64,000 nt of DNA from positions 248,001 to 312,000 of the forward strand of contig NZ_RHNW01000001.1 in NCBI RefSeq assembly GCF_003946045.1. The letters run 5' to 3'. Position 1 is the stretch's first letter. The number at the start of each line of letters is the position of its first letter. Below the pieces are notes generated by a model, which was not told the origin of the DNA, made no database searches, and saw nothing but the letters and a program-made list of their open reading frames with translations. Made by a program: the position numbers and the translations under genes. Shown here one piece after another: positions 7,164-54,138 of this stretch. This stretch comes from Levilactobacillus mulengensis. Lineage in GTDB: Bacteria; Bacillota; Bacilli; Lactobacillales; Lactobacillaceae.

Positions 7164-7392
7164 GGTGAAAATGAGCCGACCTGCCCGTTCCCGACGGTGG
7201 GTTCAAGGTGCCCTGCTGTGGGGCCCGGCTCCAGCCTGTGAAACGGTCTTCCACCTCGGCTTGAAGCCTGGAAAATCGCCAGTCTCCAAGACCGTCCCAT
7301 GCTCTAACCTGAGAAAACACTCAGGTAAGACCATCGACACAGCTGGGCACCTTGACCCGCCTCTGGTCACTGACATGGTGGTCTCATTTTAT
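7164..7392 (+). repeat. Dispersed multi-hairpin repeat, family 1, copy A (full length)
   Basis: The outer ends are complementary (GAAAATGAG near 7169 with CTCATTTT at 7384-7391). The inner closing stem GGTGGGTTCAAGGTGCCC (7197-7214) pairs with GGGCACCTTGACCCGCC (7346-7362). Inside are further hairpins, including ACCTGAG with CTCAGGT. Constant motifs shared with the other family 1 copies are CGTTCCCG on the left, CTTCCACCTCG in the middle, ATCGACACAGCT, and GCCTCTGGTCACTGACAT on the right. It lies upstream of prmA. Several open frames pass through it, but they are by-products of the palindromes. Confidence 0.85.
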
Positions 7393-7530
7393 CGCGCCGT
7401 AACCGACGTGACAGCAATTATAATCTGCCAATTTTTATCGAACGGTCATGCAATAGCCCGTCACCTCAAAGCGCCAAATACGACTTACGCCTAGCGAGAT
7501 AAACGCGTTATCAGCCTTCGACGGAAAACC

Positions 7531-7605
7531 CATAGCAGGATCACCTTGACCCCGCCATCGAGAGCGGACTTCACCCGCGATTTTCACGCAGGTTGGTCAC
7601 CGGAA
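7531..7605 (-). repeat. Degenerate family 1 repeat end, inverted relative to copy A
   Basis: CCCATAGCAGG, CACCTTGACCCCGCC, an imperfect CGGGAACGGAC and GATTTTCACGCAGG occur in the same order as at the right ends of copies B and I. The rest of the element is not recognisable, so this looks like an eroded remnant. The remaining bases between prmA and 7734 hold no gene I can support. Confidence 0.5.
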
Positions 7606-7669
7606 AGAAGCTGACTCTTCAATTATAGAGGAGTCGGCTGTGAATTGCCAAAATTCAGGCCAAAGAAAA

Positions 7670-7701
7670 GAGCCGCGGGCAAATTTAATTGCCTGCGGCT
7701 C
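7670..7701 (-). terminator. Terminator of the small gene at 7734-8051
   Basis: A 13-bp stem (GAGCCGC and GGCAA arms, one G-T mismatch) has its T-rich tract (TTTTCTTT) on the minus strand, 33 nt after the stop codon. Confidence 0.8.
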
Positions 7702-7733
7702 ACCGCTAAAATTAAATAATTAACAAAACGGTC

Positions 7734-8051
7734 CTAGACCTTCTCGGTATCGCTCGGATGATCAGCGTGACGTTGCTCGCGCTGGGCAAGTTGCGTTTCC
7801 AAGTAATCTAACATATCCGCCTCGTTTTGAAACACGCGTGGATGCTTTTGTTTGTGCAACCGCAAATCAATCTCGTTGATTCGCTGGCGTCCGGTCCACG
7901 TGTGACCATAACGAATGATTACCCGATTATTGAGCGAATCTTGACCGAATTTAAACACGTAGACGCTCTCTGGCGCCATTAATGGCCGGATATACGACTT
8001 TTCGTAACGATAGTTATGTTGCCGTAAGAACTCTTTGGTCCGACTCAGCAT
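7734..8051 (-). CDS. Hypothetical small basic protein
   Basis: The product is 105 residues, soluble and strongly basic, with no membrane segment. The middle shows beta-strand-like repeats (SVYVFKFGQ, RVIIRYGHTW, INEIDLRLHKQK) and the tail is a charged helix rich in Gln and Arg. I do not recognise a family. The frame stays open three codons further to a GTG, but that GTG lies inside the AGGAGGTGATTACC ribosome binding site, so the ATG at 8051 is the real start. It is transcribed alone and ends in a clear terminator. Confidence 0.65.
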   Translation of the reverse strand: MLSRTKEFLRQHNYRYEKSYIRPLMAPESVYVFKFGQDSLNNRVIIRYGHTWTGRQRINEIDLRLHKQKHPRVFQNEADMLDYLETQLAQREQRHADHPSDTEKV

Positions 8052-8347
8052 GGTAATCACCTCCTAATTCATGACAATCTACTCAGCTTTTAACCGACTC
8101 TTAAGCCGGTTCGGTTGCCTACCCGTTTTAAAATGTATCAATAATTGATAATAGTTGATTTTTCACTAGATTGCAAGCAAAATGTCTGGCTTCCCAAACT
8201 TTTTTCACGGTCGATTACAGGAAATTTCACACATTTGGCAATCCGATTGAAACCACTTACATTGTTTATTGTACTATACTTTCAAGACCATTGGAACTAA
8301 CTAAATTGAAAAAACACGGCTCACTTTCGGGACGCGTTAATGTAAAC

Positions 8348-8746
8348 TTAGCAAGACTCACCCTTCATCGTGATTCCCTGGGCGAAGGCAGCCAATACGT
8401 CCTGGCCATTCGCAATTTGGACCGTGTTGTCCAGCATGGCATGCGCATCATCCTTGATGGAAACCTGACCGTTTTGATAATCCATGGCTACGCCCGTTTC
8501 CAGAAAAATCAGATCGTAGTCGGACGTCCAGAGATGAATCCCCTGGTCGTTGTGCAATTTAACCGGATAATCCTTGTCAGGCGCATCAATCACAATCAGG
8601 GTGAAGTTGGTGCCAATCGTACAGGCACCACCCTGCAGAGAATACTTGCCGCCACCATCATCCGTCAATAAAATCAAATTCTTTTGTGCCAACCCCTTAT
8701 GCTGCAGCAACGCAACCAGTGAGTCGCTTAATTGAATACTGGCCAT
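8348..8746 (-). CDS. Fe-S cluster biosynthesis (A-type/HesB-like) domain protein, divergent
   Basis: The 132-residue protein resembles the iron-sulphur biosynthesis domain proteins of lactobacilli: KNLILLTDDGGGKYSLQGGACTIG, then NFTLIVID and LETGVAMDY, in the order of the HesB/IscA fold. True A-type carriers hold iron with one internal Cys and a C-terminal Cys-X-Cys pair. Here only Cys42-type (ACTIG) and a last-residue Cys are visible, so a role as a classical cluster carrier is doubtful. No suf or isc genes lie nearby. The gene is alone, in opposite orientation to mscL. The family assignment is moderate, the function inferred. Confidence 0.6.
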   Translation of the reverse strand: MASIQLSDSLVALLQHKGLAQKNLILLTDDGGGKYSLQGGACTIGTNFTLIVIDAPDKDYPVKLHNDQGIHLWTSDYDLIFLETGVAMDYQNGQVSIKDDAHAMLDNTVQIANGQDVLAAFAQGITMKGESC

Positions 8747-8938
8747 TTTAAATCCCCCTTAATTTGAATCTATTTACTCTATAAGTCCATTTTACCGCAG
8801 CGCAACCGACCGCGCACCACCGAGCGCTTCGTTTCCGCTAGGTCATTAGTCGCTAAACGTTTTAGCCCCAGCGTTTTGGTTGCAATTTTCACCCAAATCA
8901 TTAAAAATAGAAGACAAAACCTTTAGGAGGAATCGCTC

Positions 8939-9313
8939 GTGTTAAAAGAATTTAAAGAGTTTATTGCCCGCGGCAACGTGATGGACCTGGCCGTCGGGGT
9001 TATCGTCGGGGCAGCCTTTACCGCCATCGTCAACTCGTTGGTCACCAACCTAATCAACCCCCTGCTGGGCATCTTTGTGGGGAGCATTGACTTCTCCAAC
9101 CTGGTGCTCACCGTGGGCAGCGCCCATTTCCGTTACGGGGCCTTCATCAACTCGGTGATTAATTTCCTGATTATTGCCTTCGTGGTCTTCCTGTTGATCA
9201 AGTTGCTCAACAAGATTCTGGCCAAGCCGGCGGAAGAGCCTAGCGAGCCCGTGCCAACGCAGGAGGAAAAGTACCTGCGTGAAATCGTCGAGTTGCTTAA
9301 AAAGGACAAGTAA
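8939..9313 (+). CDS. mscL: Large-conductance mechanosensitive channel
   Basis: This inner-membrane pentameric channel opens under membrane tension to release solutes on hypo-osmotic shock. The 124-residue length is typical. The N-terminal amphipathic helix [20 protein letters not shown] leads into TM1 ([15 protein letters not shown]), followed by a periplasmic loop, TM2 ([18 protein letters not shown]) and a charged cytoplasmic helix ending in LLKKDK. The start is GTG at 8939, eight bases after AGGAGG. It is monocistronic, with a strong terminator downstream. Confidence 0.96.
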
Positions 9314-9381
9314 CCCGCTCAGTTCACCAAGGTGAAGCCAGCTCTACTAACACGTCTCACCCTTACACAAACCTTTCGATT

Positions 9382-9422
9382 AGCCATGTCTATCCGTGAT
9401 TTACGGGAGACATGGCTTTTTT
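9382..9422 (+). terminator. Terminator of mscL
   Basis: A 10-bp perfect stem AGCCATGTCT (9382-9391) with AGACATGGCT (9408-9417) is followed by TTTTTT. Confidence 0.9.
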
Positions 9423-9517
9423 GGTTACCCCACTGGCCCCCATTTTTATTAGCGACGTCATTAACCAGAAAAATTTTGTTCACCCTCGCAATCTTTAGAA
9501 TTAATTACAAAAAAGTC

Positions 9518-9546
9518 TTGCGACTGGCGGTCCATGCCCGTAGAAT
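9518..9546 (+). promoter_or_regulatory. Candidate promoter of the secreted nuclease cluster
   Basis: TTGCGA, a 17-bp spacer and TAGAAT lie about 80 nt before the first gene of the cluster. Nothing else was seen between the mscL terminator and 9625. Confidence 0.5.
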
Positions 9547-9624
9547 TGGTGATGAACCACAACTACTTTGTAGCATACATACAGCACTAAAGTGGCAAAC
9601 TAGGAGAAAGAAGCTGATTATCGC

Positions 9625-10254
9625 ATGACTTTTGCACTTATTTGGATCCTCCTGTGGGGCGGGGCGGCCTACTGGGTCCTGCGCAAACCCCACCGCCGCA
9701 AGATCTTGGGGAGTGCCTTTATTTTTCTCGCCCTCTTTGGCGGCGTGGTCGGGCTGGCCGCTGACAACCCACAACCGACCGTCAAGACCAAGACCGTTCT
9801 GGTGGGCACGAAACGCTTATCCCGCGCCAAGGCCGAGTCCCGCCGGTTGGCTGTGATTGCTAGTCAACAGACCGCCACCAGCGACCCACTTGATGCCCAG
9901 TCCAGTTCGCAGGCCGCCGCTGCTAGTAAAGCCGCCAGTGCCAGTGAAGCTGCCAGCCAGTCCGAAAGTCGGGCGAGTGCGAAACGTGCCTCACGGGAAG
10001 CGGCCAGTCAAGCAGCCGCGGCCAAGGCCAGTAGTCGTGCCGCTAGTTCTAGCGCGACCACGCAGTCTAGCCACGCCCGCCGCACCCAAGGCGACCTGAC
10101 CACCGGCAAGGACGGCCAGATTATCGGCAACAAGAATTCCAAGATTTATCACGTGCCCGGGCAATCGGGCTACCACATGAACAGTAGTAACGCCGTTTAC
10201 TTCCAAACGGAAGCGCAAGCCAAGGCGGCCGGCTACAGAAAGGCGTTGCGATAA
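9625..10254 (+). CDS. Membrane-anchored Ser/Ala-rich protein with short C-terminal domain
   Basis: The protein is 209 residues. Two membrane segments at the N-terminus (about 2-18 and 27-46) are followed by a low-complexity outer region of Ala, Ser and Gln (about 80-150), likely a flexible cell-wall spacer. The C-terminal 40 residues (IIGNKNSKIYHVPGQ, AVYFQTEAQAKAAGYRKA) resemble the small domain often found at the ends of secreted nucleases and called sunset domain, as far as I recall. No start other than ATG 9625 is possible because a TAG stop lies seven codons upstream. The AGGAGA box is unusually far, about 17 nt. The next gene starts one base after the stop, so both are probably coupled. 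Confidence 0.7.
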   Translation: MTFALIWILLWGGAAYWVLRKPHRRKILGSAFIFLALFGGVVGLAADNPQPTVKTKTVLVGTKRLSRAKAESRRLAVIASQQTATSDPLDAQSSSQAAAASKAASASEAASQSESRASAKRASREAASQAAAAKASSRAASSSATTQSSHARRTQGDLTTGKDGQIIGNKNSKIYHVPGQSGYHMNSSNAVYFQTEAQAKAAGYRKALR

Positions 10255-10255
10255 G

Positions 10256-11116
10256 ATGAAAAAGTTAACCGCCATCACGGCCACATTATTGAGTCTGACA
10301 CTCATCGGGCTTAGCGGCTGCACCCATAACAAGCAGTCGGCCGCGGCCAATGTGACCAGTACCAAGGTCATTTACGATCATCAGCCCCAAAAGCAGGCTA
10401 AAAAATTAGAACGGGCCAACTCCGCGGAGCGTACCCGCTTAGCCAGCGAGCAGAAATCGTTGGCTCACCGCAAGGCCAAACTTAAAAAGTCAGCCAAGAA
10501 GAAGCCAGCCGCCACACGGTCTACCAAGTCGGCGGCCACCACGAACCTCGCCGCCCTTACCTACACGGGCCAACAGGAAATCACCGTCAACCACAACAAT
10601 CCGGGCTTTAGTCGCAAACAGCTGTCCAAGACCCACGGTGCCTGGCAAACGTATCACGCCCTCGATAGCCAAAACCGGGTCACCGGTGCCGCGGCCCTGC
10701 TGAATCAGTCGCTGATGCCCAGTGCCAAACGGGAAGCTCTGACCGTCGATCCCACCGGCTGGCACAATAAGCGCACGCATCACGGCTGGTTGTACAACCG
10801 TAGCCATTTAATCGGCTACCAATTTACCGGTCAAAATAACAATCCTAAGAACCTGATGACCGGGACACGAACCCTGAACAGTCCACTTATGTTGCACAAC
10901 GAAATGGACGTCGCCACCTACCTTCACGCCAGCAAGGCCCATTACGTGCGTTACACCGTGACCCCGATTTTCCGGGGCAACGAACTGGTCGCCCGTGGGG
11001 TCCAGATGCGGGCTCAGTCGTTGGGCTCCAACGATATTCACTTCAACGTCTACATTTTTAACGTCGAACCTGGTTACACGATTGACTACGCCACCGGCTA
11101 CAGTCACGCCAGTTAA
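10256..11116 (+). CDS. Secreted DNA/RNA non-specific endonuclease, lipoprotein
   Basis: The 286-residue precursor has a lipobox LSGC with Cys22 as the likely lipidated residue, so it is anchored outside the cell. Residues about 30-95 form a basic, Lys-rich linker. The nuclease domain (about 100-280) carries HHGWLYNRSHLIGYQ, a variant of the DRGH motif with His184 as general base, and Asn in NNNPKNLMTGTRTLN as metal ligand. This is the EndA/DNA-entry nuclease type, which cleaves nucleic acid at the cell surface during competence or for nutrient scavenging. It starts 1 nt after the preceding stop. Nuclease family secure, biological role inferred. Confidence 0.9.
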   Translation: MKKLTAITATLLSLTLIGLSGCTHNKQSAAANVTSTKVIYDHQPQKQAKKLERANSAERTRLASEQKSLAHRKAKLKKSAKKKPAATRSTKSAATTNLAALTYTGQQEITVNHNNPGFSRKQLSKTHGAWQTYHALDSQNRVTGAAALLNQSLMPSAKREALTVDPTGWHNKRTHHGWLYNRSHLIGYQFTGQNNNPKNLMTGTRTLNSPLMLHNEMDVATYLHASKAHYVRYTVTPIFRGNELVARGVQMRAQSLGSNDIHFNVYIFNVEPGYTIDYATGYSHAS

Positions 11117-11176
11117 TCAGTGGTCCAAACTCTGAAGACTTGAAAAGCTGAACTGATTCCCCGGGAGGAAAATTTG

Positions 11177-11428
11177 ATGAAAACATTACGCAAGGCCTTA
11201 ACCCTGATTGCCATCACCTTTACGCTGGGTGGCGTCGTCGAACCCCTGACCGCCCCCGTTCCTAACGCCGAAGCCAAGAGCGTTAAAGTCTGGATTGCCC
11301 CTAACCACGGCCACCGTTATCACTTCGATAAAACCTGCCGCGGCTTGAACCACGCGGGCAAACTCAAACACGTGACGAAGAAATGGGCAAAGGCCCACCA
11401 CTACACGCTGTGTGGCTGGGAAAAGTAA
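11177..11428 (+). CDS. Small secreted protein with His/Cys zinc-ligand-like motif
   Basis: The 83-residue precursor has a signal peptide (KTLRKALTLIAITFTLGG) likely cut near AEA at residue about 34. The 45-residue mature part reads HRYHFDKTCRGL, then HVTKKWAKAHHYTLCGW, a pattern of His and Cys pairs found in short Ada-like or zinc-ribbon domains attached to secreted nucleases. I chose the ATG at 11177, eight bases after GGGAGG, instead of an upstream TTG. It closes the three-gene run with the nuclease and ends in a terminator. A role in nucleic-acid binding is an inference from context. Confidence 0.65.
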   Translation: MKTLRKALTLIAITFTLGGVVEPLTAPVPNAEAKSVKVWIAPNHGHRYHFDKTCRGLNHAGKLKHVTKKWAKAHHYTLCGWEK

Positions 11429-11435
11429 AGCCTGT

Positions 11436-11462
11436 AAGGCTGGCGCACCTGCCAGCCTTTTT
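11436..11462 (+). terminator. Terminator of the secreted nuclease cluster
   Basis: A 9-bp perfect stem AAGGCTGGC with GCCAGCCTT around a GCACCT-type loop is followed by T5, starting 8 nt after the stop. Confidence 0.9.
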
Positions 11463-11491
11463 GCGTGCCACCGTTTGGTCTAACCAGCCGC

Positions 11492-11519
11492 TTACTATTT
11501 TGCGAGAAAATGCTATACT
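11492..11519 (+). promoter_or_regulatory. Candidate promoter with extended -10 (TGCTATACT)
   Basis: TTACTA, a 16-bp spacer and TATACT preceded by TG lie about 80 nt upstream of the gene at 11600. The same TGCTATACT box appears before the genes at 60049 and 63096. Confidence 0.45.
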
Positions 11520-11599
11520 GTGGAAAGGGTCATTTGTTTAGCGAATAAATAAAATTTAACTATTCTACATATTTTATGTGAATCTAGAGGTCGACGAAG

Positions 11600-11962
11600 A
11601 TGAAAGAACAACAAGCAGATTTTACCGAAACTGATTGGCAACGGGCCCAAACGGCGGTCTTTGACGAGTATGACCTATTCACCAAGCAGCTCCACGTAGA
11701 AGGTGTGGACTACACCATCTTACAAGCACGCAGAATCGTGATCTACCAGGATTTGATTGAGGAATGGCGCCACAGTGCCCCGACGCTGAAGGTTGATTTA
11801 GAAGACAATACCGAAGCGCTGACGGTCTTTGAGGACCTCGCCACGGATGGCAAGAGCCACCTGCTGGACCGCTGTGCTAAAAAAATGGAAAAGTGGCCGG
11901 ACTACATCCCCTCACCCCTAACGATTTGGCTGGAACTGGCCGAGGATGCCGAACGCGAGTAA
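11600..11962 (+). CDS. Hypothetical acidic cytoplasmic protein
   Basis: The 120-residue protein is acidic, rich in Glu, Asp and Trp, and has no signal peptide or membrane segment. It is predicted mostly helical (RRIVIYQDLIEEWRHSA, LDRCAKKMEKW). I do not recognise it. The ATG follows GAGGTCGACGAAG, a moderate ribosome binding site, and an extended -10 promoter lies 80 nt upstream. It sits between secreted-protein genes but is itself not secreted. A hairpin terminator follows. Confidence 0.65.
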   Translation: MKEQQADFTETDWQRAQTAVFDEYDLFTKQLHVEGVDYTILQARRIVIYQDLIEEWRHSAPTLKVDLEDNTEALTVFEDLATDGKSHLLDRCAKKMEKWPDYIPSPLTIWLELAEDAERE

Positions 11963-12000
11963 GTGCAAATGGCTAAGTCCCTTATTGATTAGACTGCTGA

Positions 12001-12028
12001 AACGACTGGCGACTAGCTAGCCGTTTTT
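12001..12028 (+). terminator. Probable terminator of the gene at 11600
   Basis: A 9-bp stem with one mismatch (ACGACTGGC with GCTAGCCGT) is followed by TTTTTTG, about 40 nt after the stop. Confidence 0.65.
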
Positions 12029-12095
12029 TGCTCGTCTGCGGTGACGTCCAAAACTGACGACGTTAAAAGCTGATTGTCTTTCTAGGAGGAGTTTC

Positions 12096-12449
12096 ATGCA
12101 TTTGAGAAAATGGGGATTGTTGTTACTGGCCCTGGTCGTGGTCGGCTTACCCGCTGTCCCCGTCCACGCCAGTTATCTAAACGGTAATTCGTACGCCGCT
12201 ATGGCTACCCGCCGTGTCAAAATCACCCGGACCGTTCACGTTTACCGGGTGCGGACCGGCAAGTACGAAGCCGCCAACCGCTTTACGGATGCCGGGTACG
12301 TTCACAAGGGCGCGCACGTCAAGATTTCCCACTGGTTGATGAGTGCCGGTAGTGTCTGGGTAATCAAGTCGCCACACAAGTACACCCACAATTCACGAAC
12401 CTTCTTTGTGGTTGCGGCCAAGGGTCATCATTGGTATCGCAAATATTAA
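12096..12449 (+). CDS. Small secreted basic protein
   Basis: The 117-residue precursor has a clear signal peptide (MHLRKWGLLLLALVVVGLP) with a probable cleavage after VHA (residue about 25). The mature protein is very basic and aromatic, with beta-strand-like segments (TRTVHVYRVRTG, HVKISHWLMSAGSVWVI, TFFVVAAKGHHWYRKY), compatible with a small cell-surface beta domain. The family is unknown to me; such proteins are common and fast-evolving in lactobacilli. The ATG follows AGGAGG at a normal distance. The gene has its own terminator and is not in an operon. Confidence 0.7.
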   Translation: MHLRKWGLLLLALVVVGLPAVPVHASYLNGNSYAAMATRRVKITRTVHVYRVRTGKYEAANRFTDAGYVHKGAHVKISHWLMSAGSVWVIKSPHKYTHNSRTFFVVAAKGHHWYRKY

Positions 12450-12465
12450 TAGCGAAACAGCTGCA

Positions 12466-12494
12466 ACGGTTGTCGAAAATGGCAACCGGTTTTT
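12466..12494 (+). terminator. Terminator of the secreted protein gene at 12096
   Basis: A CGGTTG with CAACCG stem around a GAAAAT-containing loop is followed by GTTTTTG, 17 nt after the stop. Confidence 0.7.
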
Positions 12495-12615
12495 GATGTG
12501 ATGATTAATCGCCTTCATAGTCTAACGAAGAATACATTTTCTTCCACCCAATTTCAGCTGTATATTAATCTGTGTATTAGTGTCTACATAAATTTTGGTG
12601 TAAAGGATGATTTCA

Positions 12616-13023: not shown

Positions 13024-13061
13024 AAATTTGATTGGCCTTTTATCCTGTCCAGTAGCAATGC

Positions 13062-13105
13062 AAAACACCCAGGTTCACGTCGATTGACGCGTGCCTGGGT
13101 GTTTT
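13062..13105. terminator. Bidirectional terminator between convergent genes
   Basis: A 12-bp perfect stem AAAACACCCAGG (13062-13073) with CCTGGGTGTTTT (13094-13105), plus an inner CACGT with ACGCGTG pairing. It serves both the plus-strand secreted protein and the minus-strand gene at 13159. Confidence 0.9.
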
Positions 13106-13158
13106 AATTTACAAAAAGCCAACGACTACATCCCTGATGTCAGTCGTTGACCCCCTAC

Positions 13159-26675: not shown

Positions 26676-26880
26676 AGCCACGCAGTCAATGTTAGTGACC
26701 AGAGGCGGGCCAAAGTGACCAGCTGTGTCGATGGCCTTAGCTGAGCGATTTTCTCAGCTTAGCCCATGGGACAACCTTTGTGACCGCTTCTCAGGCACAA
26801 AGTTGAGGTGGAAGCCCGCCCTTTGGCTGGAACCGGCCCCACAGCAGGGCACTTTGAGCCCGCCGTCGGGAACGGACACG
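26648..26880 (-). repeat. Dispersed multi-hairpin repeat, family 1, copy B
   Basis: It is in the opposite orientation to copy A. The closing stem GGCGGGCCAAAGTGACC (26704-26720) pairs with GGGCACTTTGAGCCCGCC (26847-26864). Inside are AGCTGAG with CTCAGCT and a CAAC-CTTTGTG stem where other copies have CGAC-CTTTGAG, with both arms changed. It shares GTGACCAGAGGCGG and CATCGACACAGCT (reverse complement) with the rest of the family. Its right outer arm is missing; instead copy C begins. Confidence 0.85.
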
Positions 26881-26892: not shown

Positions 26893-26971
26893 TTTCGCCG
26901 GTGACACACCACATTCAGAAGCGAATGTATCACGGTCCAAACTAGTGTCAGCCGCAGGGCTGGTGAAAATG
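26893..26971. repeat. 80-bp direct repeat unit 2, left flank of repeat copy C
   Basis: Second copy of the unit at 26596-26675, 297 bp downstream. Here the hairpin arms are GTGACACAC and GTATCAC, with extra CATTC-GAATG pairing. Confidence 0.8.
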
Positions 26972-27122
26972 GGCTAAGCCGTGGGAGTTGCCTTAGCGGG
27001 TTTCCCGCTTAGGCAACTGCTATCTTTGAGACTCGGGTTATGAGGCTCAAAGTAAGTCTGAAGACCGCTTCTCAGGCTTCAGACGGGCGCCCACAGCGTC
27101 ACGGCCCAGTTTTCACCAGCCC
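26957..27122 (+). repeat. Dispersed multi-hairpin repeat, family 2, copy C
   Basis: The outer stem GGGCTGGTGAAAATGGGC (26957-26974) pairs with GCCCAGTTTTCACCAGCCC (27104-27122). An inner GTGGG (26981) pairs with CCCAC (27090). Three hairpins lie inside: 26986-27018 (15 bp, one mismatch), CTTTGAG with CTCAAAG (27024-27052) and GTCTGAAG with CTTCAGAC (27056-27084). The order and spacing are identical in copies E and F. Confidence 0.88.
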
Positions 27123-27155
27123 GGAGGCGGCGCCAACAACGACTAGTTTAGCCCG

Positions 27156-29083: not shown

Positions 29084-29281
29084 GGTGAAAATAAGGTCTC
29101 TAACCATCCGCTTCCGGCGGCGGGTTCAAAACTCCCTGCTGTGGGGAACGCTTCCAGCCTGAAACCCAGTCTCCAAGGTCGTCCCATGCTCTAAACTGAG
29201 AAAGTCGCTCAGCTAAGAGCATCGACACAGCTAGGAATTTTGACCCGCCTCTGGTCGCTTACATTAGCCACCCATTTTCAC
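29084..29281 (+). repeat. Dispersed multi-hairpin repeat, family 1, copy D (one internal hairpin lost)
   Basis: Outer ends GGTGAAAAT (29084-29092) and ATTTTCAC (29274-29281) are complementary. The closing stem GGCGGGTTCAAAACTCC (29119) pairs with GGAATTTTGACCCGCC (29234-29249). The GCTCT-CTGAG / CTCAG-AGAGC hairpin is kept, but the segment with CTTCCACCTCG and the first arm of the CTTTGAG stem is missing. The remaining 29282-29470 is AT-rich and geneless; it may hold the truB promoter, none convincing. Confidence 0.8.
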
Positions 29282-35331: not shown

Positions 35332-35501
35332 GGGAAGCGAAAATAAATCGGAACGCGGTGGGCGAACGACCGGAGCCAAATTACGGTCTCCGGTCTTACT
35401 TTGAGTCGCTGAGAATCGCGTCTCAAAGACAGCAATGCCCTAAGCGGCAAAGTGCGCCACTAAGGGCATTCCCACGGCTGAGCCCATTTTCACCAGACCT
35501 G
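35332..35501 (-). repeat. Dispersed multi-hairpin repeat, family 2, copy E
   Basis: Reverse orientation to copies C and F. Hairpins: GACCGGAG (35368-35375) with CTCCGGTC (35388-35395), the CTTTGAG-CGC stem (35398-35427), and AATGCCCTAAGCGGC (35434-35448) with GCCACTAAGGGCATT (35456-35470). GTGGG (35358) and CCCAC (35471) close them. The outermost stem is eroded to about GAAAAT with ATTTTC. Confidence 0.85.
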
Positions 35502-35733: not shown

Positions 35734-35813
35734 CTTAACACAAAGTCATACACAATATCATACAAAGTAACCTGATGTTGCCGTGAACCGGGTTCAACTA
35801 GTGTCAGCCGTGA

Positions 35814-35971
35814 GGGCGGCGAAAATAAACTCAGCTGTGGGAATTGCCTTGGCGGTTCGCCAAGGCAATTAGCGTCTTTGAGACTCGTCCTTTGAGGCTC
35901 AAAGCGAAGCCGAAGACTGCTCTCTGGCTTCGGCTGTCCGCCCTCAGCGTTCCGGTTTATTTTCACCGCCC
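35814..35971 (+). repeat. Dispersed multi-hairpin repeat, family 2, copy F (best-conserved fold)
   Basis: The outer stem GGGCGGCGAAAATAAA (35814-35829) pairs with TTTATTTTCACCGCCC (35956-35971), one mismatch. Inside, a perfect 13-bp hairpin AATTGCCTTGGCG with CGCCAAGGCAATT (35842-35870), CTTTGAG with CTCAAAG (35876-35904) and AGCCGAAG with CTTCGGCT (35908-35935). It is antisense-oriented relative to polC transcription. Confidence 0.88.
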
Positions 35972-36001
35972 GGTAAGGCGCCGTGACCGCGAGAGTTGAA
36001 C

Positions 36002-47272: not shown

Positions 47273-47308
47273 AAAAAAGCGCAGACCCCCTCACGGAATC
47301 TACGCTTT
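47273..47308 (-). terminator. Terminator of rpsB-tsf
   Basis: On the minus strand AAAGCGTAGATTCC pairs with GGTCTGCGCTTT (one mismatch and a bulge), followed by T6, 11 nt after the tsf stop. Confidence 0.85.
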
Positions 47309-47318
47309 TCTTTCGGAA

Positions 47319-48203: not shown

Positions 48204-48351
48204 GTGTAATGGCCTCCTTTTATCAATTCATCTAAGGCACCAAAAAAGACTGACTCAATCTCAGGCCATTATCGGTCCTAAACATTAAGCCAGCCTAAGG
48301 TGCTTTAAATCATATTTGGAAAGTCGCGGTTGCCCGCAACCTTGCATTTAA

Positions 48352-49149
48352 TTACTTGTTGTCGCCTTCGACAGCGTTAACGATGCTTTCCATTGAGTTG
48401 TCGGTCTTCTTGTCGCCCTTAGCGGCATCAGACTTCTTTTCAAAGGTCTTTTCGTCAACTTGGTCTTCACCCTGACGGCCTTCAACAATGGCATCAGCCA
48501 TCTTGGAAGTGATCAGACGAACGGCACGGATAGCGTCATCGTTAGATGGGATAACAACGTCGATTTCGTCTGGGTCAGTGTTCGTATCAACCATGGCAAC
48601 GATCGGAATGTTCAACTTTTGTGCTTCGTGAACAGCGATTTGTTCCTTGCGAGGGTCAACGATGAACATAACGTCAGGCAGCTTAGGCATGTCTTCGATA
48701 CCGCCTAAGAAACGTTCCAACTTGTCTTGAGACTTCTTAAGTAAGGAAACTTCCTTCTTAGGAAGAACATCAAAAGTACCGTCAGTAGCCATCTTCTTCA
48801 AAGACTTCAGACGCTTGATCCGAGTTTGGATGGTTTCCCAGTTAGTCAAAGTCCCACCTAACCAACGGTGGTTAACGTAGTATTGACCAGCACGGGTAGC
48901 TTCTTCTTCGATAGAGTCTTGCGCTTGCTTCTTAGTCCCAACAAACAGAACAACGGCGCCTTTAGCAGCTTCGTCCTTCATGTAGTTGTAAGCAGCGTCA
49001 ATCAACTTCACCGTCTTTTGTAAGTCGATGATGTAGATACCGTTACGTTCCGTGAAGATGTATTGCTTCATCTTAGGGTTCCAACGACGGGTTTGGTGAC
49101 CAAAGTGGACACCGGCTTCGAGCAGTTGTTTCATTGAAATAACAGCCAT
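48352..49149 (-). CDS. rpsB: Ribosomal protein S2
   Basis: S2 is a late-assembling 30S protein. The 265-residue protein has the standard S2 fold ([23 protein letters not shown] split over the N-terminus, [38 protein letters not shown]) and a Lys/Asp-rich C-terminal tail ([13 protein letters not shown]). The ATG follows GGAGGCATTTT. It is driven by a strong promoter and a structured leader. Secure. Confidence 0.98.
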
Positions 49150-49272
49150 GATAAAATGCCTCCAAATAGTTTTTGATTTCCTCCCCCACGCTCAACTGAC
49201 TGGAGAACTCGCAAGCGAGCACCCCTCCGGTCATCACGCGAGGTGTGAATTGGCGCATACGCACCGAAAGTA
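49150..49272 (-). promoter_or_regulatory. Structured leader of rpsB, possible S2 autoregulatory element
   Basis: The 120-nt leader can form GGTGCG with CGCC, CACCTCG through GGGGTG, and CTCGC with GCGAG hairpins before the ribosome binding site. Ribosomal protein leaders of this kind commonly bind the encoded protein; that is inferred here. The bases from 49302 to 49435 hold only inverted repeats and no gene. Confidence 0.4.
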
Positions 49273-49301
49273 ATTATACAAAATCTCTCGGCTAAACACA
49301 A
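49273..49301 (-). promoter_or_regulatory. Promoter of rpsB-tsf
   Basis: On the minus strand TTGTGT, a 17-bp spacer and a perfect TATAAT. Confidence 0.7.
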
Positions 49302-49435
49302 GCAAAAGTTTAGGATTCTTGTCGAGCTTGTCCAATGACTGACGGGACGCCGTTCGTTAATTTCCCGTCTGATGGATTCTCTTAGTCGGCTGGTTAAAGC
49401 CAGAGCCGAACGTTAGTCCCCCTCATCCCAGAAAA

Positions 49436-49464
49436 TTGGCATTTTTTAATAAGTATGATAAACT
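49436..49464 (+). promoter_or_regulatory. Promoter of the HAD gene at 49494
   Basis: TTGGCA, a 17-bp spacer and TAAACT lie 30 nt before the ATG. Confidence 0.6.
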
Positions 49465-49493
49465 ACCAAAGAACTAAATGAGGAGGAAACGAA

Positions 49494-50216
49494 ATGATAA
49501 AAGCGGTCGTCTTCGATGTCGATGACACGCTCTATGACCAAAAGGCTCCCTTCGTGGCCGCCTTGGAACCACTAGTAACCAATTCAGAAACGCTCGATTT
49601 CACCCAGGCCTTTCAGGACTACCGGTGCCAAAGCGCTAGTGCCTACGACCAAGTCGCCAGTGGCCGCTGGTCGCACGAAGAAATGGCCGTCAACCGTTTG
49701 AACGCCACCCTGCAAAAGCAGGACGTCGCGCCGGTTGACAGTGCCACGGCATTAGCGTTTGAACACGCCTATGCCGCTGGCCTACAAGATATTAAACTGT
49801 TCCCGGGGCTGGCAACGGCCTTGGACCAACTGAAAGATCAATTTAAGTTGGGCATCATTACCAATGGTAAAACGCAACACCAACTCGCCAAGGTCATGCA
49901 ATTGGAAATGCACCGGTGGATTGACCGGGACAACATCATCACGTCCGAGGAAGCCGGCTTAGCCAAGCCCGACCCCCAAATCTTTACGATGATGAATCAC
50001 CGCTTGAACCTCCGTGCCACCGAAGTCGCCTACGTGGGTGACTGCTACGGCATGGACGTCAAGGGTGCTAAGCAAGCCGGTTGGCACGCCTTTTGGTTCA
50101 ACCACCGCAACGCTGAAATGACCGATGGCGGCAACTGGATTCCGGATCAGACGGTCGGCGATTCTTTGGAACTGCAGGACCTCCTGCTCGCCCTCTCCGC
50201 CGTTCCTGAACTGTAG
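49494..50216 (+). CDS. HAD-superfamily hydrolase, YjjG-like nucleotidase
   Basis: The 240-residue cytoplasmic phosphatase has all HAD motifs: VVFDVDDTLYDQ with Asp8 and Asp10, GIITNGKTQHQ as motif II, AKPDPQIF with the motif III lysine, and VGDCYGMDVKGAKQAG as motif IV. The four-helix cap between motifs I and II and the DDTLYDQ variant fit YjjG/YfnB-type house-cleaning 5'-nucleotidases. The exact substrate is inferred. It has GAGGAGG before the ATG and a promoter of its own; repeat copy G follows the stop. Confidence 0.85.
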   Translation: MIKAVVFDVDDTLYDQKAPFVAALEPLVTNSETLDFTQAFQDYRCQSASAYDQVASGRWSHEEMAVNRLNATLQKQDVAPVDSATALAFEHAYAAGLQDIKLFPGLATALDQLKDQFKLGIITNGKTQHQLAKVMQLEMHRWIDRDNIITSEEAGLAKPDPQIFTMMNHRLNLRATEVAYVGDCYGMDVKGAKQAGWHAFWFNHRNAEMTDGGNWIPDQTVGDSLELQDLLLALSAVPEL

Positions 50217-50235
50217 AACCGATTGTACTTTGTCT

Positions 50236-50346
50236 CTCGTTCCCGGCGGCGGTCTCAAGATGCCCTGCTTGTGGGGAACGGCTCCAGCCTGAGAAGCGTT
50301 CTTCCGCCTCGCCGGGCATCTTGGACCGCCTCTGGTCACTGACATT
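50236..50346 (+). repeat. Dispersed multi-hairpin repeat, family 1, copy G (short form)
   Basis: Only 110 bp. The closing stem GGCGGTCTCAAGATGCCC (50248-50265) pairs with GGGCATCTTGGACCGCC (50314-50330). The left part to CTTCCGCCTC is present, but the CTTTGAG and CTGAG hairpins are gone. CGTTCCCGG and CCTCTGGTCACTGACATT mark its ends. It lies between convergent genes. Confidence 0.85.
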
Positions 50347-50442
50347 GCGCAACGGTTTACAGTTCCGTCTTAATTTGACTGATTTCGACCAACAACCCAC
50401 TTGCTTGGTTCGGTCAGTCCTCCTAAATTAAAAAGTAAGCAT

Positions 50443-50474
50443 AAAAAAAGTCGCTCAGCTGAGCGGCTTTTTTG
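50443..50474. terminator. Bidirectional terminator at the D-LDH gene end
   Basis: AAGTCGCTCAG pairs with CTGAGCGGCTT and is flanked by T7 and T6 on the two strands. Confidence 0.88.
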
Positions 50475-50484
50475 CTAGCAATTT

Positions 50485-51480
50485 TTAGAACTTAACTTCG
50501 TTCTCGGCCTTGCCAGTTTCAATTAATTGTTTGTTGTTGTTCAAAGCGAACTGGACCATGTTCTTAACGGCCGTCTTGGTGTAGAAGGCGATGTGTGGCG
50601 TAACCAGTACATTTTCGCGCTTCATCAAGTTCTTCAGGCGTTCGTCAGGAATGGCGTCGAAGCTACCGAAGTCGGTGTTGAAGATGCCCACTTCGTCTTC
50701 GTAAACGTCCAGCGCAGCACCGGCAACCTTGCCGCTGTCGAGGGCCCGAATCAAAGCGTCCGTGTCGATCAGTGCACCACGGGCAGGGTTCAAGATCCAA
50801 ACGCCATCCTTCATCTTACCGAAGGCGTCGTCGTTCAACATCTTTTCGTTATCCTTGGTTGCGGGGGCGTGTAAGGAGATGACGTCGGCTTGGGCGTACA
50901 ATTCATCCAACGTATCCACGTAGATACCCTGCTTTTCCAGCTCTGGGTTGTGGAAGACATCGTAAGCAATCACCTTGGCACCGAAGCCTTGGTAGATCTT
51001 CATCGCTGCGCGACCAATCCGACCGGTGGCAACGATACCGACCGTCATGCTGTTCAATTCATCCGCAATGTCTGGGGCCCAAGTCAGGTCACCGTTGGCC
51101 TGCTTACGGTCAAACGTTGGTGTCCGCCGTAACAGACGCATCAATTGCGTAACTGTTAATTCAGCAATCGCTTCTGGTGAGTATGCTGGAACGTTGGTAA
51201 CCTTGAAGCCGTTGCGTTTAACGGCATCGGCATCAACGTTATCCACACCGACATTCCGTAATGACAGATTGGTCACCCCATTAGCGGCTAACTTGTCTAA
51301 GACAGAGGCCGTGTAAGGTTTTTGTTGGTAAACCACTGCCCCGTCATAGCCTTTAGCAAGATCAACAGTCTTGTCGTCTAAGAGGTCGCCGACAGCCTTA
51401 ACTTCAATCCCTTGTTCCTTGGACCATTGTTCCAAATAAGGTTGTTCGTCGTCACGAATGCCATAAGCAATAATTTTCAC
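50485..51480 (-). CDS. ldhD: D-lactate dehydrogenase (D-2-hydroxyacid dehydrogenase)
   Basis: The enzyme reduces pyruvate to D-lactate with NADH in the cytoplasm. Its 331 residues fit D-LDH of lactobacilli throughout (SLRNVGVDNVD, WAPDIADELNSMTVG). Catalytic residues are visible: Arg234 in NPARGALID, an acidic cluster DVYEDE near 263, and His296 in VTPHIAFYT. The Rossmann motif reads VGIVATGRIG, so the first glycine of GxGxxG is Ala151, unusual in this family. The start is GTG after GAGGAGG. A 16-bp palindrome lies directly upstream of that box. Confidence 0.9.
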   Translation of the reverse strand: MKIIAYGIRDDEQPYLEQWSKEQGIEVKAVGDLLDDKTVDLAKGYDGAVVYQQKPYTASVLDKLAANGVTNLSLRNVGVDNVDADAVKRNGFKVTNVPAYSPEAIAELTVTQLMRLLRRTPTFDRKQANGDLTWAPDIADELNSMTVGIVATGRIGRAAMKIYQGFGAKVIAYDVFHNPELEKQGIYVDTLDELYAQADVISLHAPATKDNEKMLNDDAFGKMKDGVWILNPARGALIDTDALIRALDSGKVAGAALDVYEDEVGIFNTDFGSFDAIPDERLKNLMKRENVLVTPHIAFYTKTAVKNMVQFALNNNKQLIETGKAENEVKF

Positions 51481-51492
51481 AGTAATTTCCTC

Positions 51493-51508
51493 CTCAAATT
51501 AATTTGAG
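51493..51508 (-). promoter_or_regulatory. Palindrome next to the ldhD ribosome binding site
   Basis: CTCAAATTAATTTGAG is a perfect 16-bp palindrome ending against the Shine-Dalgarno sequence. It could be an operator or an RNA hairpin affecting translation. Confidence 0.4.
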
Positions 51509-51561
51509 ACACTTTTTTGAAGCACGGGCATAGTGTAACACAGATAAACCAATTTTCTCCA

Positions 51562-51831
51562 CTAAAGTGTTACCCCATGATCGGCTAGGTAGGCCAATTT
51601 CTTTTGCCGGCTCTGGTGCTTGAAGGCCCACTCCGCGTGTAAGGCATCGTGCTTGCTGTTAAATTCTTCACTATAGAGGACCTTCAACGGCCGGTGAACC
51701 TTCGTATACTTGGCCCCCTTGCCGGCTAAATGGGTGGCAAAGCGTTTGGCAACATCGGTCGTGAAGCCGCCATACAGGGAATTGTCCGCGCACAAGAGCA
51801 CGTAGAAGTAGTACAACTTAGTGCTGGCCAT
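51562..51831 (-). CDS. GIY-YIG nuclease-domain protein
   Basis: This 89-residue single-domain protein of the YhbQ/YazA (UPF0213-like) type has [20 protein letters not shown], where YVL and YGG give the GIY-YIG signature, [15 protein letters not shown] with the catalytic Arg, and the Glu in LHAEWAFK. Such stand-alone domains are probably DNA nicking or repair nucleases, but their substrate is unknown. It overlaps the end of the upstream methyltransferase gene by 14 nt, with GGAGG inside that gene, so they are translationally coupled, an order conserved in Firmicutes. Confidence 0.9.
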
Positions 51832-52564
51832 AGAGTAACGCCTCCACTTCGGGCGTGTAATGGCCCTGCGCGTCGTAAACCGTGAGTGGCGTTGGGAACC
51901 GCAGTCCCCCGGGCTTGCCGTCCTTGATGGCTTCGACCAGGACCATGTTGGCCTCCTTGCCGGGCTTCGGGTGAACCAGCCGTACGCGTTTAGGGGCCAA
52001 CCGGTTCGCCGTCATCAGCTCCAACAGCTGAAGCAGCCGGTCGGGCCGGTGAACAAAGTAAGCCTTGCCGTTCATCTTGAGCAAGCCACTGGTCGTTTCC
52101 ACAATCGTTGCCAAATTAGTCAAAATTTCATGGCGGGCAATCGCCAGGTACCGGTTCGGATTCTTCTGACTGTCCGGCAGGTCTTCGAAATACGGCGGGT
52201 TACAGGTCACTACGTCCACCGAATCCTTGGGAATCCAGTCGTTCACCTGGGCCAAATCGCCCTCGTACACCGTCATGCGGTCCGTCAGGTCATTCAGGGC
52301 AATGCTGCGTCGAGCCATGTCGGCCAGCCGCGGCTGAATCTCCACCTCGGCCAACTGACCGTGCGTCTTGCTACTCATAAACAGGCCCACCGCGCCGTTA
52401 CCGGCACACAGGTCGACCGTCTGACTGGTCGCGCGCAACGGGAGCTTGGCAAAATCCGCCAGCAATACGGCGTCCAGTGAAAAGGCGAAGACCTCGGGGC
52501 TCTGAATAATTTGAATATCTTGACTATATAATTGATCGATTCGTTCATCGGGTTTCAGGTTCAC
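51818..52564 (-). CDS. tRNA1(Val) (adenine37-N6)-methyltransferase-like protein
   Basis: The 248-residue class I SAM methyltransferase has [10 protein letters not shown], the SAM loop [13 protein letters not shown], and the N6-adenine catalytic motif [10 protein letters not shown]. It belongs to the TrmN6/YabB group, which methylates A37 of tRNA(Val) in E. coli; function in lactobacilli is by homology only. The start is a GTG after GGAGGCGTTATCG. It is the first gene of a pair with the GIY-YIG gene and is divergent from the acyltransferase gene, with repeat copy H between them. Confidence 0.85.
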
Positions 52565-52624
52565 CGATAACGCCTCCGTTTCGTTAAAAGGTTTTTAGTT
52601 AAAATTAATTGGCTTGCGGTAATT

Positions 52625-52812
52625 GTTCGTTCCCGGCGGCGGGCTCAAAACGGCCTGCTATGGGGCCGGTTCCAGCCAAAGAACGGGCTTCCACCTCGAC
52701 TTTGAGCCACAGTACGGTCTCAAAGGTCGTCCCGTGGACTAGGCTGAGAAAATTCCTCAGCCAAGGCCACCGACACAGCTGGCCATTTTGGCCCGCCTCT
52801 GGTCACTGACAC
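52625..52812 (+). repeat. Dispersed multi-hairpin repeat, family 1, copy H
   Basis: The closing stem GGCGGGCTCAAAACGGCC (52638-52655) pairs with GGCCATTTTGGCCCGCC (52781-52797). Inner hairpins are CGAC-CTTTGAG with CTCAAAG-GTCG (52697-52729) and GGCTGAG with CTCAGCC (52742-52762). Constant blocks CTTCCACCTCGAC, CACCGACACAGCT and CCTCTGGTCACTGACA are present. The outer GTGAAAAT ends seen in copies A and D are not recognisable. The rest of the 500-nt gap (52813-52998) has no gene. Confidence 0.88.
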
Positions 52813-52998
52813 TGGCCACTCTGCCACATCTTGCCAACCTGGCAACTCACTCTCTTAAATTGCCAGTCTATATTCCTCTGACATGGACTTGATGCTTGAC
52901 CCACTCAAGCTAATTTTACCTATTCGGATCATCAGCCATCTGCCAGCCACCCAGTTGGATGTCACGCGCACATTTCTCCAGCATTTTCACAAGATAGC

Positions 52999-53027
52999 TT
53001 GCAACCCCGCGACTTTTTTTGCATACT
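52999..53027 (+). promoter_or_regulatory. Promoter of the acyltransferase gene
   Basis: TTGCAA, a 17-bp spacer and CATACT. Its position rules out the longer open frame beginning near 52999 as the coding start. Confidence 0.55.
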
Positions 53028-53064
53028 AGAAACAATCAGTTTCATTGCGAGAGGAGTGTATCAC

Positions 53065-53700
53065 ATGTTTTATAAATTCTTACGGGGCGTGGTTTGTACG
53101 ATTTTGTACATCGTCAATGGCCGGGCACGGTACGTTCACCAAGCTGACTTGCCGGACGGCCCTTACGTTTTGGTGGGCCCCCACCGGACCTGGTTCGATC
53201 CCGTTTATTTTGCCATGGCGGGTTATCCGCGCAAGTTTAGTTTCATGGCCAAAGAGGAATTGTTCCAAAACCCTATTTTCCGATGGTTGTTGAAACATGT
53301 CAACGGTTTTCCAGTAAATCGTGACCATCCGGGCCCTTCAGCCATCAAAACCCCGGTTCGCATTCTGCGTCAGGGTGATTTGTCGCTGATCATGTTCCCT
53401 TCAGGCTCTCGGCACTCCGCCGAACTCAAGGGTGGCGCAGCGGTCATTGCTAAGATGGCCGGCGTTCCCCTGGTTCCCGCCGTCTACCAAGGCCCCCTGA
53501 CCTTCAAGCAACTCTTTTCCCGCAAGCCGGTCACGATTGCCTTTGGCACCCCCATCGTCATCGACCGCAAGATGAAATTAAACGAAGAAGGCCAAGCCGT
53601 CATCGAAAAGCAAATGCAGGCGGCCTTCGACAAGCTCGACAACGAAATCGACCCGAATTTCCACTACGTCGATGTCACGGGCGAAAAGAAAAAGGATTAA
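53065..53700 (+). CDS. plsC: 1-acyl-sn-glycerol-3-phosphate acyltransferase
   Basis: This membrane-associated enzyme acylates lysophosphatidic acid to phosphatidic acid, the substrate of CdsA. The 211-residue protein has the HX4D catalytic motif HRTWFD (His40, Asp45) and the glycerophosphate-binding FPSGSRHS in place of FPEGTRS, with an N-terminal amphipathic or membrane helix (YKFLRGVVCTILYIV). The ATG at 53065 follows AGGAG. The EGT to SGS change in motif III is a variation worth noting. A very strong terminator follows. Confidence 0.9.
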   Translation: MFYKFLRGVVCTILYIVNGRARYVHQADLPDGPYVLVGPHRTWFDPVYFAMAGYPRKFSFMAKEELFQNPIFRWLLKHVNGFPVNRDHPGPSAIKTPVRILRQGDLSLIMFPSGSRHSAELKGGAAVIAKMAGVPLVPAVYQGPLTFKQLFSRKPVTIAFGTPIVIDRKMKLNEEGQAVIEKQMQAAFDKLDNEIDPNFHYVDVTGEKKKD

Positions 53701-53716
53701 TAAAATATTCCATGAT

Positions 53717-53777
53717 AAAAGGGCTTCGTTAGTGTCTGGCACAGCATCTACTGTGACGCACTAACGAAGCCCTTTTT
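53717..53777. terminator. Long bidirectional terminator after plsC
   Basis: An 18-bp stem AAAAGGGCTTCGTTAGTG (53717-53734) with CACTAACGAAGCCCTTTT (53759-53776), and an inner CACAG with CTGTG hairpin, followed by T5. It is well above average strength. Confidence 0.92.
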
Positions 53778-53893
53778 CGTTTCACTTTTAATTCAACTAC
53801 CAGCAACCATTATGACAAAGTACATGAATGCCAACAGAGCATCTAAACATCTGAACACGAGATCAATAATTGTAGGCCAACATGAGCCGCAGA

Positions 53894-54138
53894 ACTGGTT
53901 AAAATGTGCCCAGTGCAACCCGTTTTAGTGACCAGAGGCGGACCAAGGTTCCCGGCTGTGTCGATGGCCTTGGCTGAGGTTTTCTCAGCCTAGCCCATGG
54001 GACGACCTTTGAGACCGCTTTTGGGCTCAAAGTCGAGGTGGAAGCCCGCCTCTCGGGCTGTAACCGACCCCATAGCAGGGAACCTTGAGCCCGCCGCCGG
54101 GAACGAACATCCCCGCAACCCGGCACAGTTTAACCAGT
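53894..54138 (-). repeat. Dispersed multi-hairpin repeat, family 1, copy I (complete, with outer stem)
   Basis: The outer stem ACTGGTTAAAATGTGCC (53894-53910) pairs with GGCACAGTTTAACCAGT (54122-54138), one mismatch. The closing stem GGCGGACCAAGGTTCCC (53937-53953) pairs with GGGAACCTTGAGCCCGCC (54078-54095). Inside are GGCTGAG with CTCAGCC, CGAC-CTTTGAG with CTCAAAG-GTCG and AGCCCG with CGGGCT. It lies between convergent plsC and the ABC transporter gene, overlapping neither. Confidence 0.9.

Follow-up and report, generated by a model that had tools for sequence, protein, structure and literature searches.

Among the repeats closest to the one analyzed here, REPs are 20–40 bp long (PMC3733652), and in SBW25 93% of the 430 REPIN doublets are inverted, with both compensatory changes and heterodimers known (PMC3116915, PMC3733652). 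In the BOX elements of Streptococcus pneumoniae, an outer structure of boxA and boxC encloses variable inner modules, with spread in the past and slow insertion at present (PMC3049150). Photorhabdus luminescens carries as many as 711 ERIC copies (PMC10969869), and bcr1 is present in 31 copies of 167 bp in the Bacillus cereus group (PMC2267715). These descriptions follow excerpts of the cited papers.

The repeat studied here shares with REPINs, or REP dimers, the high copy number of intergenic palindromes, the inverted doublets and the compensatory changes, but its units are approximately 185 nt long and multibranched, fall into two core families, showed no RAYT link at four of five Y1 loci and occupy slots that are stable between the compared species. 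It is modular like BOX, next to which it is placed by description and not by sequence, but the inner part is replaced by another folded core, whereas BOX varies the number of tandem boxB modules. Like MITEs such as ERIC it is non-coding, intergenic and folded; unlike them, it has no convincing direct repeats, is GC-rich and has a branched interior that covaries across the genus. It resembles bcr1 in being a dispersed folded repeat in a Gram-positive, bcr1 having fewer copies according to the excerpt cited. We read the repeat as a new, elaborate form of the REPIN/BOX/MITE kind that is renewed in place.

The stretch of 64 kb that was analyzed (the window) belongs to a Levilactobacillus genome close to L. 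lanxiensis and L. wangkuiensis. The earlier note on this DNA claimed six intergenic copies of one family (A, B, D, G, H and I), and all six were scored by the covariance model R1, at 219 to 73 bits, although the training set of the model included A, B, D, H and I. A second repeat family with the same architecture was found in the window. The elements are as follows:

7152..7185, + strand: left shell arm of copy A (TGCTTCCGGGCGGGTGAAAATGAGCC...), read from the sequence
7186..7375, + strand: family 1 core, copy A (R1 179.3 bits)
26690..26874, - strand: family 1 core, copy B, flanked by ribF and hrcA (R1 217.2 bits)
26946..27129, - strand: family 2 element (shell and P2–P4) in tandem with copy B (R1 62.6 bits; aligned to other family 2 copies)
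29109..29263, + strand: family 1 core, copy D, adjoining truB, with P2 and part of P3 deleted (R1 129.5 bits)
35343..35490, + strand: weak element-like match facing the family 2 element at 35802..35978 (R1 17.0 bits, E 0.006)
35802..35978, - strand: family 2 element (R1 36.5 bits; aligned with family 2 copies)
50238..50344, + strand: family 1 copy G, with closing stem and P2 region retained and P3/P4 absent (R1 72.6 bits)
52628..52811, + strand: family 1 core, copy H, with closing stem, P2, P3 and P4 (R1 219.4 bits)
53923..54105, - strand: family 1 core, copy I (R1 209.9 bits)

The unit is a branched foldback, consisting of a closing stem and up to three hairpins, P2–P4. The closing stems quoted in the earlier note were recovered in place: AAGGTGCCC at 7205 pairs with GGGCACCTT at 7345 in copy A, AAGATGCCC at 50257 with GGGCATCTT at 50314 in copy G, and AAAACGGCC at 52647 with GGCCATTTT at 52781 in copy H, the latter with one internal C.A mismatch; the stems of copies I and B also match their earlier description. 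The proposed layout of a closing stem plus inner hairpins needs correction for two copies: D is without P2 and part of P3, and G is without P3 and P4. The linker motifs described as constant occurred above chance, with seven matches each, a level reached in none of 100 shuffles; for two of the motifs, five of seven and six of seven matches fell inside copies.

The copies in the window represent a much larger population. A whole-genome search with R1 returned at least 150 matches, and the 464 kb examined in full contained 112 entries corresponding to 111 elements. On average an element occurs about every 4 kb, cores account for roughly 4% of the DNA examined, and extrapolation from the 464 kb gives about 750 copies per genome. 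The search of this genome and its relatives proposed in the earlier note thus revealed many copies rather than just six, and the objection that only a few exist falls. The repeat family was detected by R1 in 33 of 35 Levilactobacillus genomes (all but G022 and G031), and by a broader model also in a few other genera. A distant blastn search with copy H gave no match in the plasmid and phage collections. The Rfam match that the earlier note named as a refutation did not appear: there was none at gathering thresholds across the 64-kb window, and nothing overlapped a copy at E values up to 5 in the window segment 26500–29400 and at loci L075, L222 and L223. Among the literature matches listed for lactobacilli, titles and abstract openings nowhere name the repeat.

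The folding of copy H was far stronger than that of shuffled sequences on both strands, with RNA z-scores of -5.7 and -6.0 and a DNA z-score of -5.3. The covariation of the stems, which the earlier note took as evidence of selection on a folded form, exceeded that expected from phylogeny: there were 289 same-branch co-changes at partner columns, compared to a mean of 49.8 (sd 6.7, maximum 75) for deranged partners, on a single tree that approximates the history of the copies because they exchange sequence. As many as 234 of the 289 co-changes were from one Watson-Crick pair to another, and the interior hairpins covary genus-wide. Shared subfamilies account for part of the covarying cells. The R1 structure is partly a manual choice, in that the initial helices from RNAalifold (columns 109–156 and 41–63) contained many U.G cells and were partly replaced by hand, and the column-pairing controls were drawn from the same alignment. 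P2 (columns 43–52 with 62–71) was spotted later by eye and lies mostly outside the models. When orthologous family 1 copies were compared pairwise, in rows where 30 or more pairs were unchanged, 29 Watson-Crick changes were two-sided and 41 changes one-sided; since other subfamilies replace copies, these counts are not taken as evidence of step-by-step compensation.

The pair types are informative about the folded molecule. In family 1 of the own genome, 2893 pair cells were Watson-Crick, 56 G.T, 81 A.C and 171 other; the genus-wide numbers were 2730, 118, 142 and 232, respectively. A small control of seven tRNAs gave 138 Watson-Crick, 13 G.T and no A.C cells. In well-paired columns, A.C exceeded G.T genus-wide (64 vs 27), which may reflect folding of the complementary strand as RNA. 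The earlier note had left the choice between RNA and single-stranded DNA open; we lean towards pairing that is strand-symmetric or at the DNA level, because G.T cells are few and not above A.C, and because units are inserted in both transcription directions.

The position of the units relative to genes was polar. In 98 of 112 entries the 5' end of the unit pointed to the closer gene boundary, as it did in 17 of 23 and 20 of 24 cases in two other species. Units were found in both orientations to genes, often placed between a stop codon and a terminator-like site: among the 54 units that face a stop, such a site was located beyond the core in 31 and between stop and core in 7. Terminator-like sites were only somewhat rarer after element-free stops (49/117). 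Neighbouring units at distances of 150–600 bp were inverted ('+-') in all 19 cases, as in REPIN doublets, and at 50–600 bp in two other species, G028 and G015, in 16 of 17 cases, the remaining one being on the same strand. Solitary units are numerous.

Comparison with sister species showed that slots are shared. Of the gaps compared with the sister species G021, 39 were occupied in both genomes, 3 in the own genome only, 1 in the relative only and 103 were empty; for G012 the corresponding numbers were 26, 0, 1 and 33. Among the 14 indels of 110 nt or more in 138 gap alignments, none was a complete element cleanly inserted at an empty site. The contents of the slots are less stable. The core family had changed between sister species in 4 of 16 single-element slots; core exchange was aligned at four slots and observed at others too, so one slot can hold a core of either family depending on the species. 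The ortholog was nearer than the best own paralog in 5/12, 6/12, 3/8 and 6/7 comparisons. Some copies have a swapped or deleted interior. In this species the units are often enclosed by a long imperfect terminal inverted repeat (the shell), with a left consensus gggttTAA..GTTGTCAG and a right consensus CACTGGTTTAACCCG outside the inner landmarks, based on 47 entries (27 of family 2 and 20 of family 1) chosen by these landmarks. The strict landmark pattern is failed by most family 1 entries.

On balance, and with some reserve, we think it probable that the Levilactobacillus repeats are a non-coding, MITE/REPIN-like population with DNA-level pairing that spread in ancient times and is now mainly renewed in place. 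Pairing would be preserved at the DNA level, as a folded single strand or cruciform, and the ancient spread would have relied on an enzyme reading the folded ends. Today, new insertion would be less frequent than exchange between copies by way of the conserved shell ends. We infer that units would be transcribed with the neighbouring gene, with a possible effect on the mRNA. Several results weigh against this reading: there were no convincing direct repeats, no clean insertions among the indels compared, no elements near four of five Y1 genes and no recurrent gene enclosed by '+' and '-' units in the stretches examined, so that movement is inferred from copy number. The excess of A.C over G.T in well-paired columns, the frequency of terminator-like sites after element-free stops and the part of the covariation due to shared subfamilies count against it as well.

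An alternative that we consider unlikely is that the unit is a host-useful cis element of the mRNA, a structured 3'-UTR, or a 5'-UTR when read from the opposite strand, which would protect transcripts or insulate neighbouring genes and be held in place by selection. Consistent with this, slots are common to sister species, and of the 19 one-to-one slots shared with G021, 18 had the same orientation by eye, the exception being gap 91, where different units are set side by side. The nearest boundary on the 5' side was a stop codon in 62 of 112 entries, and the terminator-like sites beyond the core, described above, also fit. However, 36 of 112 units point the 5' end at a start codon, so that the transcribed strand differs among units; G.T cells are not in excess, and the interior is swapped or deleted.

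It is also doubtful that the repeat is an ordinary MITE, with terminal inverted repeats moved by a DDE transposase that an IS of this genome encodes and the branched fold as a by-product of the palindrome. The high copy number, the intergenic location and the long imperfect inverted shell ends agree with this, the shell being a terminal inverted repeat as in MITEs, but the interior hairpins covary genus-wide and the eight copies in the window have a GC content of 0.56–0.65, compared to 0.49–0.53 for the window, and are not AT-rich. No convincing target-site duplication was found: the best fixed offset gave 4-letter words in 4 of 46 copies (shuffles up to 3), as expected from a scan of thousands of offsets with uncertain element ends. 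Nor was an autonomous partner seen in the stretches examined. Between '+'/'-' units 600–2200 bp apart there was no recurrent gene in the five pairs, four with a single ORF of 150 aa or more and the fifth without any; the enclosed ORF in the window is an acyltransferase (Pfam), and the others resemble host genes by eye. Identity with integron attC sites, considered on account of the post-stop position, was rejected, as the end motifs are wrongly ordered and the neighbours are housekeeping genes.

We similarly regard it as improbable that the cores are exchangeable cargo, in which case a dedicated enzyme or process would dock on the folded shell at gene edges and swap cores in place, with one circulating pool of cores serving hundreds of fixed slots. 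A family of trans-acting small RNAs or riboswitch-like RNAs would explain the strong fold and the covariation, but is very unlikely given the extrapolated 750 copies per genome, both orientations to genes and no Rfam match in the regions searched. Least probable of all are REPINs proper, in which a RAYT (Y1) enzyme mobilises doublets. Inverted doublets, compensatory changes, intergenic location and hundreds of copies are as in the REPINs of the excerpted report (PMC3116915). However, no element was located within about 1.5 kb of four of five Y1 transposase genes, the Y1 gene of 139–141 aa at the two loci inspected, L069 and L070, lies beside a TnpB-like gene (IS605-like, named by eye), and the branched units of about 185 nt differ from REPs of 20–40 bp (PMC3733652, in excerpt); RAYT mobilisation was set aside.

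The gene-edge polarity, the inverted neighbours and the shared slots with differing core family are new beyond the earlier note. The repeats are a large hidden component of the genome in a food-relevant genus, named by no Rfam or literature match found. The combination of stable slots and changing contents separates the location of an element from its identity, which are usually confounded for bacterial repeats, and makes renewal in place testable with strain genomes. Finally, the scarcity of wobble pairs provides a sequence-only test of DNA versus RNA folding.

Re-reading of the window sequence recovered in place all six family 1 copies (A, B, D, G, H and I) that the earlier note had reported, together with their motifs. 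The search that it proposed, by covariance model in this genome and in other lactobacilli, was carried out with a model of family 1 cores from the own genome (R1), and returned at least 150 matches in L. mulengensis, from 1632 first-look candidates, and matches in 33 of 58 genomes. Besides the window, we scanned C12:1-360000 and a 20 kb piece of each of contigs C23 and C33 in full, 464 kb altogether; the pieces of C23 and C33 were picked for holding copies, C12 not for density. R1 gave 162 matches here, counting opposite-strand shadows, and the best 150 merge into 112 entries, one of which is an element split in two by tiling (the 12 weakest matches were unused). The genome thus holds far more than the few copies of the window, with 92 entries in the 360 kb of C12 alone and, by extrapolation, perhaps 750 elements in total. 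Overlap by more than half with an ORF of 150 aa or longer was seen for 7 of the 112 entries; such ORFs, called by length only, fill 72% of the DNA.

The fold was modelled on 33 aligned cores of this genome: 5 lie in the window, and the remaining 28 are further copies. It comprises a closing stem (columns 12–33 with 161–181) and the hairpins P2, P3 and P4, with an A.A mismatch kept within P4 in 30 of the 33 cores. Two-sided changes were seen in 22 of the 47 pairs, amounting to 118 cells, where shuffling gave 29.8 on average and sliding the partners no more than 16. RNAalifold, applied to the same cores, gave 59 pairs, 20 of them with two-sided changes. Copies G (50238–50344) and D (29109–29263) of the window retain the closing stem and apparently arose by internal deletion. 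Many copies were also matched by R1 on their opposite strand, at approximately 20–48 bits, so that the whole unit is quasi-palindromic. The family 2 elements (26946–27129 and 35802–35978) have the same layout and ends as family 1, and in L. mulengensis a family 2-like shell, the outer imperfect inverted-repeat arms, often encloses family 1 cores. Both shell arms fitted a strict pattern in 20 entries of family 1 and 27 of family 2.

In the 73-row genus-wide alignment, 45 of the 47 pairs had two-sided changes, 88.4% of cells were paired and 777 cells were two-sided (229 when shuffled, at most 157 when slid), but the rows had been fitted to the model, which biases them towards the modelled pairs. 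As a tree-aware control, we counted changes on the same branch at partner columns, with 1000 derangements of the partners. True partners had 289 such changes, 234 of them from one Watson-Crick pair to another, whereas deranged partners had 49.8 (sd 6.7, maximum 75). The 52 best rows from the own genome had 110, as compared to 7.9 (maximum 21). A single tree is an approximation, since copies exchange sequence; with this reservation, the compensatory change described in the earlier note exceeds what phylogeny would produce.

Covarying pairs that alternate between A-T and G-C do so nearly without intermediates, as in the first pair of P4 (AT 37, GC 33, CG 1, no G.T or A.C). If selection acted on the modelled RNA strand alone, G.T mismatches should outnumber A.C mismatches. 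Among 3201 cells of family 1 in the own genome with letters on both sides, we counted 56 G.T, 81 A.C and 171 other mismatches, and in the genus-wide alignment 118, 142 and 232, respectively. A small tRNA control (7 tRNAs, 151 pairs) had 13 G.T and no A.C. The expected G.T excess was absent. In well-paired columns of the genus-wide alignment, A.C exceeded G.T (64 to 27), which hints that the other strand folds. Both RNA strands of copy H fold well, as does its DNA. Taken together, these results support pairing in DNA or in both strands, without proving it.

The elements are ordered with respect to each other and to genes. In the own genome, neighbours less than 150 bp apart were on the same strand in 13 of 13 cases (one a tiling artefact), and those at 150–600 bp were ordered '+-' in 19 of 19. 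Neighbours at 50–600 bp in genomes G028 and G015 were '+-' in 16 of 17 cases, '--' in one and '-+' in none. G015 has nine inverted pairs, eight spaced 68–83 nt; judged by eye from the unit ends, 7 of these 8 close pairs combine a family-1-like and a family-2-like unit. The nearer gene boundary is faced by the 5' end in 98 of the 112 entries (a stop codon in 62, a start codon in 36) and by the 3' end in 14, and the 5' end points to it in 17 of 23 cases in G028 and 20 of 24 in G015, counts that rest on uncurated gene starts. For 54 units with the 5' end at most 150 nt from a stop codon, a simple purpose-made scan placed a terminator-like site in gene direction after the core in 31 and between stop and core in 7; element-free gaps had such a site at 49 of 117 stops.

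Orthologous gaps were compared with two relatives, G021 and G012, whose flanking genes are approximately 94% and 96% identical to those of the own genome in the subset compared. With detection thresholds that differed between own genome and relative, elements were present in both genomes in 39 gaps for G021 (own only 3, G021 only 1, none 103) and in 26 for G012 (own only 0, G012 only 1, none 33). In the one 'relative only' gap (gap 43), the right shell is still present in the own genome. Where a slot had one unit in each genome, in the same orientation, and both units were typed by eye, the core family differed in 4 of 16 cases for G021 (gaps 10, 66, 76 and 82) and 2 of 12 for G012 (gaps 33 and 40). 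When gaps 10, 66, 76 and 82 were aligned, the flanks agreed up to approximately CGCCTCCGGGCTGGTGAAAA on the left and from approximately CCAGCCCTGCGGCTGACAC on the right, and the interior differed. The same kind of difference was also seen by eye at gap 91, at gap 43 (G021 and G012 compared) and in the ribF-hrcA gap of loci L073 and L074. In same-family comparisons, the ortholog was more similar than the nearest paralog of the own genome in just 5 of 12, 6 of 12, 3 of 8 and 6 of 7 cases; since that paralog is the top scorer among dozens of copies, these comparisons do no more than suggest replacement within families. Clean indels of 110 nt or more numbered 14 in the 138 gap alignments; approximately 8 of them, by eye, repeat adjoining sequence like tandem gains or losses. 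At gap 56 (C12:86854-87314), a family-1-like core is present in the own genome, and G021 retains the outer ends alone, as either an emptied slot or one awaiting filling. A separate difference is a stretch of 2357 nt that G021 has and the own genome lacks, in a short gap between genes at C12:204816.

All genomes matched by R1 were Levilactobacillus (33 of 35 in the genus, 0 of 23 outside); G022 and G031 of this genus gave no match in that search, which used stricter filters and scored 45 candidates per genome. With more candidates scored, 24 of 26 of the same genus members had matches. The TruB protein encoded in the window is 98% identical to those of L. lanxiensis and L. wangkuiensis and 90% to that of L. 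brevis. The genus-wide model R2 was built on 73 diverse matches, one of which, in L060, shadows another on the opposite strand. Of 148 genomes sampled from the order, 6 had R2 matches: the own genome, G129 and G136 from other genera of the family, with at least 17 and with 8 matches, and G164, G169 and G122 from other families, with 2, 2 and 1. Five loci in three genomes of other families in the order (L224, L225, L226, L229 and L230) scored 30–51 bits and are either distant relatives or chance matches. R2 also hit Lactiplantibacillus modestisalitolerans at 91.5 bits and, with a weak 41.7 bits, L. plantarum near truB. At L222, from another genus, a repeat copy (1763–1913) and a T-box leader (2104–2311, 104 bits) are approximately 190 nt apart.

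Titles and abstract openings from literature searches were checked, and none named such a repeat in Levilactobacillus or L. brevis; in the text of PMC2267715, "lactobacill" occurs once, for L. johnsonii, in a table. Among MITEs, the folded, intergenic ERIC reaches 711 copies in Photorhabdus luminescens (PMC10969869). The direct repeats that mark MITEs were not convincingly found at the element ends. The own genome has five Y1 (IS200-type) transposase genes (C1:109602, C34:97085, C1:42643, C3:73244 and C23:35650); four of these loci were searched and had no copy of the repeat, so that no linked RAYT was seen, and in the two inspected the Y1 gene is divergent to a gene named TnpB-like by eye. 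Judging from the conservation of the shell, copies would exchange through its ends; simple homologous gene conversion would be the most economical mechanism for this, and a dedicated site-specific process the boldest one still compatible with the data. REPINs (PMC3116915, PMC3733652) and BOX elements (PMC3049150) are likewise populations of folded, gene-less repeats. Thus, being similar to these but showing neither a linked RAYT nor convincing direct repeats, the family is classed as a variant of folded-repeat elements.
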